From: Bacteroidia bacterium
GTDB lineage: Bacteria > Bacteroidota > Bacteroidia > Bacteroidales > UBA12481
Direction of reading: 5' to 3'
DNA: 5,563 bases
NCBI GenBank assembly: GCA_026391235.1
Contig: JAPLDV010000470.1
Coordinates: forward strand, 1-5,563
The notes beneath the pieces were generated by a model. It searched no databases, was not told the origin of the DNA, and saw only the letters and a list, made by a program, of their open reading frames with translations. This document shows positions 24 to 5,209 of the stretch, piece after piece. Each line of letters starts with the position of its first letter. Position 1 is the first letter of the stretch. The translations under genes were made by a program, and so were the position numbers.

Positions 24-926
24 TCAGAGCCCTGACTTCGCGATCCGGTCCCACTTGGCGGTATTAGCGGGATCGATTTCTTTGAGAGCGTTTATCACCC
101 TGTTCTTTTCATCAGGAAACGACTCCGAGAAAATATTGACAATTTCATCCGATTTAGAGGTAAAGAATACCTGGAATATCATAGCTGTGGGGTTCTCACG
201 GTATGCGGGGCGCATTTCAATCAAGGCTTCAGCAATCTCAGCCCTGGCTTCATCAACCCTATCCACCAAGCGATCGAGTCCCATGCGGTGATATCTGTAT
301 ATGCAGGAACGCACTGACCGGTATTTATCATTTAAAATATTCTCAATCAACCAGTAACGGTTTTTAATTCCTTCAAAAGCCTTCCAGCCTGATTCTGCGG
401 CATTCTGTGCATTGCTTTTAATAGCCTCGGCCCTCTGGAAAAAGAGGCTCCCACCTTCAAGTGCAAAGGAATCATAATCAAGTCCTAAGATAATATTGAC
501 ATAATAAGCCAGCAAAGAAACCAGATTGGATGTAAATTGGGTTTCATTGAATCGAAGGGGTTCAAAATCGTCATACTTGAAATGAATATCGTTATCGCGG
601 TGATTTAACATGACAGTTGTTTGGGAGGTTCCGAAAATCGGACGGCTCGACTGAATCTGGAGGGTACCCTGAAATTCATTATCGGAGATCCGGTCGGTAA
701 TATTAAACATCAGCTGACATTGAATCCGTTCCTCATCTTTGAAAATATGATCGGTCCAATTCTGATTATTAACGAATTCCATCATTGCTTTTTGCATATT
801 GTCGTATATCTCTCTGTTGGATCCTTGAACGAGCTGGGATACGACACTGATCATACAATTCAATTCCTGAGCTGAAACCACCCGAAAAAAGAGGGAAATC
901 AAAACGAGGAGAAATATCTTACGCAT
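24..926 (-). CDS. porD: DUF4835 family secreted protein (PorD-type, type IX secretion associated)
   Basis: The protein has 300 residues with a classical signal peptide: Met-Arg-Lys, a hydrophobic stretch to about residue 16, and a likely signal peptidase I site at VSA|QE near residue 19. It should therefore be periplasmic or at the outer membrane. The mature start QELNC, then QGSN and an EFVNNQNWT-like segment near residues 49-57, is the signature I recognise for DUF4835. Recent annotation names this family PorD, a type IX secretion system component; that is recalled and cannot be shown here. Length fits the family. The start at 926 puts Met directly before the signal peptide and overlaps the end of coaBC by 8 bases. 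An in-frame ATG at 935 would only add three residues. No strong Shine-Dalgarno is seen, so expression probably depends on the upstream operon. Confident for the family, moderate for the role. Confidence 0.88.
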   Translation of the reverse strand: MRKIFLLVLISLFFRVVSAQELNCMISVVSQLVQGSNREIYDNMQKAMMEFVNNQNWTDHIFKDEERIQCQLMFNITDRISDNEFQGTLQIQSSRPIFGTSQTTVMLNHRDNDIHFKYDDFEPLRFNETQFTSNLVSLLAYYVNIILGLDYDSFALEGGSLFFQRAEAIKSNAQNAAESGWKAFEGIKNRYWLIENILNDKYRSVRSCIYRYHRMGLDRLVDRVDEARAEIAEALIEMRPAYRENPTAMIFQVFFTSKSDEIVNIFSESFPDEKNRVINALKEIDPANTAKWDRIAKSGL

Positions 927-2133
927 ATAAATCATTTATCATCAAATTAAACACTTCATCTACAATATCCCTTGCAACTTCCTGCTTCGACTTTAACTCG
1001 AAATCTTTCCGATTATTGTCTTTCCCGATGATGATAATCTTATTCGTGTCCACGATAAATCCGGCACCCGGTTCATTCAGACGGTTCAGGATAATTAGAT
1101 CGAGGTTCTTCTCTGAAAGTTTTGCGGAGGCGTTAGTTAAAGCATTCTCCGATTCGAGTGCAAATCCTATGAGGATCTGGCCTTTCAATCGCTGACGGCC
1201 AAGTTTGGCTGCAATATCTTCAGTAGGAATTAAAGTCAGAACCAGCTCATCTCCTGCTCGTTTGATCTTTGAAGCCAATTGATTCGCCGGTTTATAATCA
1301 GCAACGGCAGCTGCAAAAACAATAATATCCATATCAGGGAACAAAGCACTGGCCATATTGTTCATTTCCTCAGCAGATACAACCTGATGGGTTTTCACAC
1401 CGGGATCTCCAATGCTGATATTAACGGGCCCGGACACCAGTTCAACGATTGCACCTTCTTCAGCAAAAGTTTTGGCCAGGGAATACCCCATTTTTCCTGA
1501 GGAAAAATTACCAATAAACCGCACCGGATCGATTTTCTCAAAGGTGGGTCCTGCGGTAATCAGTACTCTTTTGCCATTAAACCGGCTTTTTTTTTTAAAG
1601 TAATCTTTCAGCCAGGCGACTATAATCTCCGGCTCTTCCATCCGGCCCTTACCCTCCAATCCGCTCGCGAGCTTACCTGCAGCAGGTTCGATAATAAAAT
1701 TCCCATAAGATTTCAGGGTTTCCAGGTTTTTAAGAGTAGCCGGGTGTTGAAGCATATCGAGGTCCATTGCCGGAGCAACCACTACCGGGCATCTAGCTGA
1801 TAGATAAGTAGTTAGCAAAAGATTATCGGCAATGCCGTGAGCCATTTTAGCGATTGTGTTGGCTGTTGCCGGGGCAATCATCATAAGATCGGCCCAGATT
1901 CCAAGATCAACATGGGAATTCCAGGAGCCGTCGTCATGCCGGAAGAAATCGGTTAAAACAGTGTTTTTTGACAGGGTAGCCAGCGTAACCGGGGTAATGA
2001 ATTCCTTACCGTAGGGAGTAAGGATGATTTTCACCTCTGCACCTTCGCGTATCAGCAATCGCGTCAGGAAAGCTGCTTTATAGGCAGCAATACTGCCCGT
2101 AATGCCAAGGATGATTTTTTTCCCCTGCAACAT
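919..2133 (-). CDS. coaBC: Bifunctional phosphopantothenoylcysteine decarboxylase / phosphopantothenate-cysteine ligase
   Basis: This cytosolic enzyme carries out two steps of coenzyme A synthesis: it ligates cysteine to 4'-phosphopantothenate (CoaB) and decarboxylates the product to 4'-phosphopantetheine (CoaC). The 404 residues match the usual length. The N-terminal FMN-binding CoaC domain (about 1-178) begins with GITGSIAAYK, has catalytic His74 in SHVDLG, and PAMD at 121-124. The CoaB domain (about 186-400) shows ITAGPT at 192-197, IGNFSSGKMG at 207-216 with Asn209, AAAVADYKP around 274-282, Lys289 in SKIKR, and KNLDLI near 342-347. Unlike the E. coli enzyme, CoaC has Asp124 where Asn125 is expected and Ser157 where Cys158 is expected; I recall the same pattern in other Bacteroidota. 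The gene starts 15 bases after the omega gene with a weak AGG-type ribosome site, so it is co-transcribed. A run of ten A residues lies in the interdomain linker. Confidence 0.96.
   Translation of the reverse strand: MLQGKKIILGITGSIAAYKAAFLTRLLIREGAEVKIILTPYGKEFITPVTLATLSKNTVLTDFFRHDDGSWNSHVDLGIWADLMMIAPATANTIAKMAHGIADNLLLTTYLSARCPVVVAPAMDLDMLQHPATLKNLETLKSYGNFIIEPAAGKLASGLEGKGRMEEPEIIVAWLKDYFKKKSRFNGKRVLITAGPTFEKIDPVRFIGNFSSGKMGYSLAKTFAEEGAIVELVSGPVNISIGDPGVKTHQVVSAEEMNNMASALFPDMDIIVFAAAVADYKPANQLASKIKRAGDELVLTLIPTEDIAAKLGRQRLKGQILIGFALESENALTNASAKLSEKNLDLIILNRLNEPGAGFIVDTNKIIIIGKDNNRKDFELKSKQEVARDIVDEVFNLMINDLYA
1587..1596 (-). repeat. A10 homopolymer in the CoaC-CoaB interdomain linker
   Basis: Ten consecutive A residues on the coding strand encode Lys180-Lys182 and the first base of Ser183, just after the CoaC domain and before CoaB. 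The reading frame is intact. Runs of this length are known to promote polymerase or replication slippage, which here would uncouple the two domains. No evidence in the sequence shows that this occurs. Confidence 0.9.
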
Positions 2134-2148
2134 AACCTGCGGGGAAGA

Positions 2149-2484
2149 CTATTGCTCTTCCGTTGTGGCGATATCAGGAGTCCTGTAATATACTTTGCCG
2201 TCCATAAATTCCTGGATGGCAATGAGAGTCGGTTTTGGCAACCGTTCGTAAAATTTTGATATCTCGATCTGTTCGCGGTTTTCAAAAACTTCTTCCAGGT
2301 TATCAGTAAAGGAAGTGAATTCTTCGAGCTTGGTATTCAGTTCCTGCTTCATTTGCATACTGATCTGATTTGCCCGTTTGGCAACGATGGCTACAGTTTG
2401 ATAAAGATTGCCGGTTGGATTATCCATATCATAAAGATTCCGTGTAACAGTGGTCAAAGGGGCGTTACTTTTTTTGTAATCCAT
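2149..2484 (-). CDS. rpoZ: DNA-directed RNA polymerase omega subunit (Rpb6/RpoZ family)
   Basis: This small 111-residue protein is most likely the omega subunit, which binds the beta-prime subunit and helps RNA polymerase assemble. The supporting region is residues 21-41, DNPTGNLYQ followed by TVAIVAKRANQI, which matches the omega/Rpb6 pattern of an Asn-x-Tyr motif, a hydrophobic helix and a conserved Lys-Arg-Ala. The C-terminal half (about 42-111) is charged and helical and is a lineage-specific extension compared with E. coli omega. Its ATG shares one base with the bamD stop codon (TAATG at 2482-2486), which suggests translational coupling. It lies 15 bases before coaBC; rpoZ next to coaBC also occurs in Firmicutes, which supports the call. 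No separate promoter is apparent. Confidence 0.85.
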   Translation of the reverse strand: MDYKKSNAPLTTVTRNLYDMDNPTGNLYQTVAIVAKRANQISMQMKQELNTKLEEFTSFTDNLEEVFENREQIEISKFYERLPKPTLIAIQEFMDGKVYYRTPDIATTEEQ

Positions 2485-3281
2485 TATTTCAAATATTTAG
2501 TTGTATTAGTATAAATACGCTCTGCTTCCTTTAAATGTTTGGATTGAGGGAATTCCTCTTTAAATCCAAGATAGGCTTCAGTAGTATTTTGGAAGCGTTC
2601 TTTCATTTTTTCATAAACTGAGCGAATGGCGAGTTCATAACTGGATTTCAATACCAGGAACAGCAACTCCTCGCGATAATGAGTATCCGGAAACTCTTTC
2701 AAACCGTTGTTGAGGGCAGTAATTGCTGCTTTAAAATCGCTCAGTTTGTAATACAGGCTTGCACTATCGAAAGATTTTTTAACCAGTTTTTCCCTTAGTT
2801 CATCGATAAGCTTGTTGCAATCAGTGATCCTCTTACTTGCAGGATGCTGATTCATAAACATTTGCAGCTCATCCAATGCTTTATAAGTATTTGCCTGATC
2901 CAGGCTGGATATGGGAGATTGCTCATAAAAACAATAGGCATACATATAGGCACATTCCTCGGCATAAGGGGAATTCGGGAATGAGGTAACAAAGTTTTTA
3001 AAGTAATAGCTGGCCATTTCGTATTCCTGCTGGTGGTAATAGCAGTATGCATATCGATAATTAACCTCTTCGGCCTTGTCGGTTCCGCGATAGATGGGTA
3101 ATATCATCTCCATAAGTGCTGAGGCTCGAGTATAATCTTTCTTGTCGAAGTATTCGATAGCCCTTTTATATTTCAGATCCGTATCGGCACTGGACAAAAG
3201 CTTCTGGTAATCACTGCATGAAGCCAGAAGAAGTGCCAGTAATCCAATGGTTAAGAACCCAGTACCCGATTTTTTTAGCAT
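2484..3281 (-). CDS. bamD: Outer membrane protein assembly factor BamD (TPR lipoprotein)
   Basis: BamD is the periplasmic lipoprotein of the BAM complex that folds beta-barrel proteins into the outer membrane, working with BamA. The 265-residue protein has a lipoprotein signal peptide: MLKK, a hydrophobic segment at about 8-20, and lipobox LASC with the lipidated Cys22. It continues with SDYQKLL and then TPR-like helical repeats through most of the chain. Examples are the A-x-EYF-x-KKDY-x-RA-type helix near 41-54 and the YYHQQEYEMASYYF segment near 81-94, a pattern typical of BamD. The start at 3281 was chosen because it puts a normal signal peptide at the N terminus; an upstream in-frame ATG at 3296 would add MYLCA and overlap the -7 box. 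It is the first gene of the operon and its stop overlaps the omega start. Confidence 0.92.
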   Translation of the reverse strand: MLKKSGTGFLTIGLLALLLASCSDYQKLLSSADTDLKYKRAIEYFDKKDYTRASALMEMILPIYRGTDKAEEVNYRYAYCYYHQQEYEMASYYFKNFVTSFPNSPYAEECAYMYAYCFYEQSPISSLDQANTYKALDELQMFMNQHPASKRITDCNKLIDELREKLVKKSFDSASLYYKLSDFKAAITALNNGLKEFPDTHYREELLFLVLKSSYELAIRSVYEKMKERFQNTTEAYLGFKEEFPQSKHLKEAERIYTNTTKYLK

Positions 3282-3379: not shown

Positions 3380-4674
3380 GTGGACGTATTTGAAAAAGTC
3401 AAAGGGAATAAGGGGCCGCTTGGGCAATATGCCAAAGAAGCCGATGGATACTTTGTGTTTCCGAAACTTGAAGGGGAGATAAAACCGCGCATGATGTTCC
3501 GCGGTAAAGAAGTGCTGGCCTGGAGTTTAAACAATTACCTGGGTTTGGCCAATCATCCTGAAGTCAGAGAAGCCGACGCAAAAGCAGCGGCTGAATGGGG
3601 GCTTGGTTATCCCATGGGTGCCAGGGCAATGTCGGGACATACCCGTCAGCACGAAATACTGGAAGAACAGCTTGCTGAATTTGAAGGTAAAGAATCGTGT
3701 TACCTGTTGAACTACGGTTACCAGGGGATGGTTTCGATCATCGACTCGATCCTCGACCGGAAAGATGTTGTAGTATATGATAGGTTTCGATCATCGACTC
3801 GATCCTCGACCGGAAAGATGTTGTAGTATATGATACCGAAGCTCATGCCTGTATTATTGATGGTTTGCGGATGCATATCGGCAAACGCTTTGTGTTCCCG
3901 CATAACGACATGGAGAATCTCGAAAAGCAGTTGAACCGTGCCGTAAAAATTGCAGAAGCAGCCGGAGGCGGGGTTCTGGTCATCACCGAAGGAGTTTTCG
4001 GCATGTCGGGCGATTTAGGCAAATTGAAAGAAATCGTTGAGTTGAAAAAGAAATATCCATTCAGATTCCTGGTTGATGATGCGCACGGTTTTGGAACCAT
4101 GGGCGCAACCGGTGCCGGTACGGGTGAACATCTTGGAGTACAGGATCAGATCGATCTGTATTTCGGGACCTTCGCAAAATCAATGGCCCTGATCGGAGGA
4201 TTCGTTGCCGGCAGTGAAGAAGTCATTAAATTCCTGAAGTACAATATGCGTTCGCAGATATTTGCCAAATCGCTCCCGATGCCATGCGTAATCGGAGCCA
4301 TGAAGCGGCTCGAACTGCTGAGGACAAAGCCTGAACTCAAGAAACAACTCTGGACCATCGTTGATGCCCTGCAATCCGGTCTGAAAGCCAAGGGATTCAA
4401 CCTGGGCAACACCGAATCGCCGGTGACTCCGGTATTCCTCAACGGAACCACTCCTGAGGCCACCAACGTGGTGTTCGATCTTCGGGAAAATTACGGTGTT
4501 TTCTGCTCCGTCGTTGTCTATCCCGTTGTGCCAAAAGATGTCATCATGCTCCGGCTGATCCCAACGGCAGTGCATACCCTGGAAGATGTCGACTATACCA
4601 TTCATGCTTTTTCGTCGATCCTTGGAAAACTGCGGAACCACGAGTATAACCGGGATACGCTTCCCACGGTGTAA
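3380..4674 (+). pseudogene. Alpha-oxoamine synthase family PLP enzyme (SPT/KBL-like), frameshifted by a 53-bp duplication
   Basis: Family members condense an amino acid with an acyl-CoA, releasing CO2. In Bacteroidota close relatives are annotated as 2-amino-3-ketobutyrate CoA ligase or serine palmitoyltransferase, the latter making the first sphingolipid intermediate. As read, the frame starting at GTG 3380 stops at 3824-3826 after 148 residues, the last 14 being foreign. Removing one copy of the 53-bp repeat joins it to the frame ending at TAA 4672-4674 and gives 413 residues, normal for the family. In that restored protein NNYLGLANHP is at 51-60, the cofactor-stacking His138 in EAHAC, Asp215 and His218 in VDDAHG, and the Schiff-base Lys249 in GTFAKS. 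Lys followed by Ser rather than Ala or Gly favours a serine palmitoyltransferase-like member (inference). GTG is the start because MDVFEK matches family N termini and an in-frame stop lies at 3359-3361. Neither fragment has a full active site. Confidence 0.9.
3730..3835 (+). repeat. Perfect 53-bp tandem duplication inside the PLP enzyme gene
   Basis: Copy 1 spans 3730-3782 and copy 2 spans 3783-3835; they are identical base for base, each beginning GGTTTCGATC and ending TATATGATA. Since 53 is not a multiple of three, the reading frame is lost. Inside each copy two 12-base units differ at one position (3734-3745 and 3746-3757 in copy 1), encoding Ser-Ile-Ile-Asp and Ser-Ile-Leu-Asp, so the region is already repetitive. 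The flanking bases show no further homology beyond the copies. Confidence 0.97.
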
Positions 4675-4677
4675 GGA

Positions 4678-4719
4678 GCAAGGCGCAAGGCGCAAGGCTC
4701 AAGGCGCAAGGCGCAAGGC
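4678..4719 (+). repeat. Six tandem GCAAGGC heptamers between convergent genes
   Basis: Six head-to-tail 7-base units run from 4678 to 4719; five are GCAAGGC and the fourth is TCAAGGC. The array begins three bases after the stop of the PLP enzyme gene and is followed at once by nine T residues (4720-4728) that include part of the stop codon of the convergent lipoprotein gene. The T tract could aid transcript termination on the plus strand, but the heptamers do not form an evident stem, so a standard intrinsic terminator is not supported. Regular GG pairs might allow a weak two-layer quadruplex. Confidence 0.95.
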
Positions 4720-5163: not shown

Positions 5164-5209
5164 AGACGCAAGTATGCAGACGCAAATAAGCAGACGCAAG
5201 TATGCGTCT
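5164..5209. repeat. Three 14-bp tandem units ending in a perfect hairpin
   Basis: Units at 5164-5177 and 5192-5205 are identical (AGACGCAAGTATGC); the middle one at 5178-5191 differs at two positions. The last unit runs into GTCT, making an inverted repeat: AGACGCA (5192-5198), loop AGTA, TGCGTCT (5203-5209). This resembles interspersed GAGACGC/GCGTCTC elements common in intergenic DNA of Bacteroidota (recalled). It sits directly after the stop codon of the minus-strand gene on the right. The hairpin could protect or end that transcript, but no T run follows on that strand. Confidence 0.85.

Follow-up and report, generated by a model that had tools for sequence, protein, structure and literature searches.

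The window, by which we mean the whole 5,563-nucleotide stretch of DNA analyzed, carries an exact 53-bp tandem duplication inside a gene whose sequence places its product with the cysteate fatty acyltransferases (SulA/CFAT), PLP-dependent enzymes of sulfonolipid synthesis. The presence of the duplication in the given sequence is confirmed. We tentatively prefer to read it as a real, very recent, one-off event that created a null allele of the sulA/CFAT gene, a reading to which we give slightly less than an even chance; between a real duplication and an assembly error the balance is close to even. Most likely, this is a one-off, be it an artefact or a real event of a kind already known, with no sign of an evolved switch.

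An exact 53-bp duplication interrupts the reading frame

A repeat search and Tandem Repeats Finder agreed on two 53-nt copies, 100% identical and head to tail (Table 1), as an earlier reading made from the sequence alone (the sequence-only reading) had described. The repeat is the longest exact self-match in the window over all shifts of 15–400 bases. In 100 simulated sequences with the window's dinucleotide frequencies the longest self-match was 16 bases, which excludes a chance origin. At both ends the self-match has the same limits as the unit, with 0 bases of exact microhomology on either side, leaving only a loose GAT...GG likeness at the junction. Searched in viral contigs, the junction sequence gave 0 matches.

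Because 53 is not a multiple of three, the extra copy shifts the frame, and the gene in the window does not form a single uninterrupted frame: residues 1–134 of the upstream frame match relatives, its last 14 residues are out of frame, and the early stop bears out the earlier claim that the duplication breaks the gene. The downstream frame is open from 3784 only, the earliest codon at which it could start is a TTG at 3865, and it holds the codons for the PLP lysine (4177) and for a SulA-specific lysine (4267). The unit itself corresponds to residues 118–134, directly behind Gly115 and Tyr116 (AfSulA numbering), which bind PLP in SulA. His140 and all later residues, the PLP lysine included, lie behind the stop, and the 148-residue product is presumably inactive.

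Table 1. Coordinates of genes, reading frames and repeat copies in the window
Feature	Position	Strand	Remarks
porD (type IX secretion)	24..935	-	intact; NF052317 over cut-off
coaBC	919..2133	-	intact; TIGR00521 over cut-off
RNA polymerase Rpb6/omega-type gene	2149..2484	-	intact; PF01192
bamD-type outer-membrane lipoprotein gene	2484..3281	-	intact, divergent neighbor; TIGR03302 over cut-off
Broken sulA/CFAT-type gene, upstream frame	3380..3826	+	GTG start, 148 codons, stop 3824-3826
Copy 1 of 53-bp unit	3730..3782	+	residues 118-134 plus one base of each flanking codon
Copy 2 of 53-bp unit	3783..3835	+	identical to copy 1, abutting it
Same sulA/CFAT-type gene, downstream frame	3784..4674	+	residues 118-413 plus stop

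The two frames overlap for 40 bases (3784–3823), an arrangement in which ribosomal frameshifting could conceivably still yield a full-length product. We regard this as extremely improbable: by eye no heptamer of the classical slippery type is seen in the overlap, about 18 residues would be added to the product directly behind the PLP phosphate-binding loop, and the arrangement is absent from all 79 related loci that could be tested (see below).

The interrupted gene is of the SulA/CFAT type

The second half of the gene matched two PDB entries far above all others, cysteate-C-fatty acyltransferase 28EH (E 1.1e-126, 425 bits) and the cysteate acyl-ACP transferase SulA of Alistipes finegoldii, 7U7H (E 3.7e-124, 417 bits), followed by serine palmitoyltransferase (SPT) 3A2B (E 7.2e-58, 199 bits). 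The same two entries led for the first half (28EH, E 2.5e-56, 193 bits; 7U7H, E 1.2e-54, 187 bits), where the next match reached 60 bits and 3A2B 39 bits (E 5e-09). An intact relative, P0001, was likewise closest to SulA and CFAT (residues 2–405 and 2–410). SulA and Spt can be told apart by one active-site residue, Lys281, in place of which Spt has alanine (PMC9304779). The equivalent of Lys281 is a lysine in the window and in 80/80 related loci (the best 80 of 406), alanine in all four SPT paralogues of the four nearest genomes, and asparagine in three further paralogues below the SPT cut-off. All ten mapped active-site residues (Asn53, Gly115, Tyr116, His140, Asp217, His220, Thr248, Lys251, Lys281 and Arg376) are kept in the window gene, split over its two frames; the frame interruption is what sets it apart from 7U7H and 28EH.

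Four intact relatives scored 301–310 bits against the SPT profile NF047600, whose curated cut-off is 640 bits, and reached no other NCBIfam cut-off either; the two halves of the window gene scored 71.4 and 237.9 bits. A separate gene exceeds the 640-bit cut-off in each of the four nearest genomes. We therefore rejected an SPT identity, and the possible 'sphingolipid-type enzyme' of the sequence-only reading becomes a putative sulfonolipid enzyme, which would use cysteate and acyl-ACP to make 3-ketocapnine; its description as a PLP enzyme of 413 residues stands, with the active-site residues present and the 28 best-scoring relatives all 413 amino acids long. Bacteroidota SPT shares the alpha-oxoamine synthase family with the window gene, but the window halves score far below the SPT cut-off and a lysine takes the place of the SPT alanine. 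Although one source names many of the relatives 'glycine C-acetyltransferase', the gene would, on these sequence features, be better called sulA/CFAT-type than by that name or as a sphingolipid enzyme.

The sulA-type gene (3380–4674) lies divergently beside bamD, the Rpb6/omega-type gene, coaBC and porD (24–3281). Counted regardless of orientation, and with some loci cut by contig ends, bamD and the Rpb6-type gene each occurred within the fetched flanks of 26 of 80 loci, coaBC of 25 and porD of 23. Two further repeats lie in the window. Directly behind the sulA-type stop codon, at 4673–4719, is an imperfect 7-bp tandem repeat of AAGGCGC (6.7 copies), whose 13-base core had no exact match in 92 fetched loci. 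At 5164–5205, a 14-bp unit, AGACGCAAGTATGC, occurs three times, after which its first part appears in inverse form, resembling a small palindromic repeat element; its 11-base end had no exact match in the same 92 loci.

Relatives carry a single copy in an open frame

We compared the best 80 of 406 confirmed related loci, leaving L071 out of the copy count since it begins at the unit, at a contig end. All 79 testable loci have a single copy of the unit with both sides in one frame and no extra bases; 78 of them reach a stop at 412–418 codons and one, L004, runs off its contig. A set of 60 genomes related to the nearest one also took in the four nearest. Of these 60, 41 had a match of at least 57% identity with no internal stop, spanning nearly the whole protein in 40 and reaching the contig end in one (G004). 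Three more (G005, G010 and G025) had only pieces reaching a contig end, of which that of G005 (residues 1–289) runs through the unit without a change of frame and stops two bases short of the contig end. The remaining 16 genomes had no match as close as this. The comparison with related genomes, proposed as a check in the sequence-only reading, thus returned one copy at every testable locus, so a null allele as the consensus would need a local loss.

The 80 related loci, 922,817 bases in all, contained no exact tandem duplication with a period of 34–399, and those with a period of 15–33 occurred in 4 of the 80. A protein search with the 148-residue product gave 1005 N-terminal fragments, and the 120 listed had abrupt ends or other tails, none of them the duplicated-frame tail. 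C-terminal fragments starting at residue 117 or 118 numbered 17 among 120 listed, 14 at 117 (all Met) and three at 118 (P0032, P0253 and P0312). We did not take this pile-up as evidence of a lesion at the same site, since a gene finder is likely to choose Met117 as the start where a contig end truncates the gene.

Two other observations concern the N-terminal fragments. P0121, a close relative that is 97% identical over 91% of the query, has a different tail after residue 198, as would a copy of the same gene broken elsewhere, for instance by a frameshift. Nine of the 120 listed (P0143, P0165, P0171, P0174, P0192, P0193, P0210, P0228 and P0234) have tails such as IGRAHV or KSTRLNSSHVRISYAVFCLK, probably translated from sequencing adapters; in that case some of the protein collection's broken copies would be library artefacts.

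Both sides of the break look constrained

We detected no further stop or frameshift: ahead of the unit and beyond it the gene stays open and can be aligned with relatives. None of 412 positions (residues 2–413) has a residue absent from all 35 compared proteins, namely those of exactly 413 amino acids among the 38 best matches. The earlier statement that the gene has no further lesion is supported. Codon 135, next to the unit, encodes Thr where most others have Ser; Thr occurs there in 2 of 62 listed 413-residue proteins.

Compared with the related loci L001–L004, pN/pS was 0.03–0.07 before the unit and 0.07–0.11 behind it, figures that do not exceed the 0.06–0.20 spanned by the neighbors coaBC, bamD, the Rpb6-type gene and porD. 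For L007, which is more distant, the values were 0.09 before the unit, 0.19 behind it and 0.15–0.26 for the neighbors. All these values are rough because synonymous sites are nearly saturated. Constraint on both halves of the gene thus looks like that in intact relatives, and there is no sign of decay. The part behind the unit had the higher pN/pS in 5/5 comparisons with the window; we rejected relaxed constraint behind the break as the cause, because the same pattern appeared in 10/10 comparisons among five intact relatives, which makes it a property of the gene and not of the break. We also considered the unit as a specially conserved recombination site. It shows fewer differences from L002–L004 than the part behind it does, and its divergence from L001–L004 is about that of the part before it; the case was not convincing.

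A real duplication and an assembly error predict the same picture

With no decay on either side and a single copy in the testable relatives, the event would be very recent or artificial, in agreement with the sequence-only reading. In the real duplication that we tentatively prefer, replication slippage or end joining would have doubled 53 bp within the sulA/CFAT gene, giving a null allele for the step that begins sulfonolipid synthesis, in a bacterium that its relatives would place in the Bacteroidota. Both copies would be present in the cell, the product would end after 148 residues without the PLP lysine, and activity would be lost; the tandem copies could collapse back to one, with no dedicated switch indicated. 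The exact head-to-tail copies and their out-of-frame effect support such a duplication, the position of the active-site residues from His140 on behind the stop supports a true null allele, and intact constraint on both sides suits a young event. Bacteria do undergo duplications of such length: the mutations that arose spontaneously in lrp of Xenorhabdus nematophila include tandem duplications of 26–116 bp (PMC6786866), and a short one is known from pneumococcal wchA (PMC4022640). In these reports, as presumably here, a duplication located within the reading frame inactivates a gene, but theirs come from cultured isolates, whereas ours is one assembled sequence of a lipid gene. The blunt junction, the lack of comparable duplications in the related loci and the uninterrupted gene at all testable ones count against a real event.

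The same facts also fit a false duplication, in which stretches ending and beginning with the same 53 bases were joined without merging their overlap, splitting a normal single-copy gene. To this we assign a probability somewhat below even. A self-match that stops exactly at the unit ends is what an unmerged overlap gives, and the single copy in testable relatives and the constrained halves free of private residues are equally in its favor, but modern de Bruijn assemblers need reads spanning a junction, which speaks against it. The internal repeats to which the sequence-only reading had appealed in support of an assembly duplication showed no notable folding: three stretches over the unit folded no better than shuffles (z 0.63, 0.71 and 1.68). 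According to PMC11017572, many bacterial pseudogenes are assembly errors, and those described there resemble ours in that the frame is broken while the rest of the gene is well preserved. An unmerged 53-base overlap and a young blunt duplication give the same picture.

Little points to an on/off switch

The sequence-only reading had also proposed an on/off switch. Applied to sulfonolipid synthesis, this would make it phase-variable, the second 53-bp copy coming and going among the cells of a population, either at a repeat that the lineage keeps or through duplications that form anew. We consider this improbable. Precedents exist: tandem-repeat copy number in a bacterium has been termed phase-variable (PMC12817950), pneumococcal capsule phase variation is attributed to spontaneous duplication within reading frames (two papers by Waite and colleagues, cited in PMC4022640), new tandem repeats in a beta-lactamase gene are reported to be reversible (PMC4169377), and reversible duplications are described in fungi (PMC13207564). 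The fungal ones are microhomology-mediated and, like ours, intragenic with a premature stop, but the window is bacterial and has 0 exact bases of the short homology that marks their break points. A repeat kept by the lineage should show as copy-number variation among relatives, and the 79 testable loci (from the best 80 of 406) hold no second copy, which speaks against it, as do the fragments (120 listed out of 1005), none of which has the duplicated-frame tail, and the want of exact microhomology or notable DNA folding at the unit. The claim of a switch found no support in these comparisons. A duplication that newly arises and then collapses would leave no trace in relatives. In Xenorhabdus, where three duplications were among the lrp mutations, the phenotypic reversions sequenced in PMC6786866 were none of them genetic, in a test of eight isolates that may not include the duplication isolates.

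There is a slim chance that, in some cells of a natural Bacteroidota population, sulfonolipid synthesis is switched off by a 53-bp duplication that can revert. By analogy with the pneumococcus, but for a membrane lipid, such cells could then regain an outer-membrane lipid by losing the second copy.

Discussion

Spontaneous intragenic duplications, some of them reversible, are already known in bacteria, and a real event here would be of that known kind. The useful correction is the identity of the enzyme. A link between this sulfonolipid gene and its neighbors for the outer membrane and type IX secretion might be of interest. If the duplication is false, the window holds one more assembly-made pseudogene. 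If, as we tentatively prefer, it is real, it would mark a fresh loss of the synthesis of sulfonolipids, lipids that, according to PMC9304779, contribute to gliding motility, set off multicellular development in choanoflagellates and, in mouse models, suppress inflammation.
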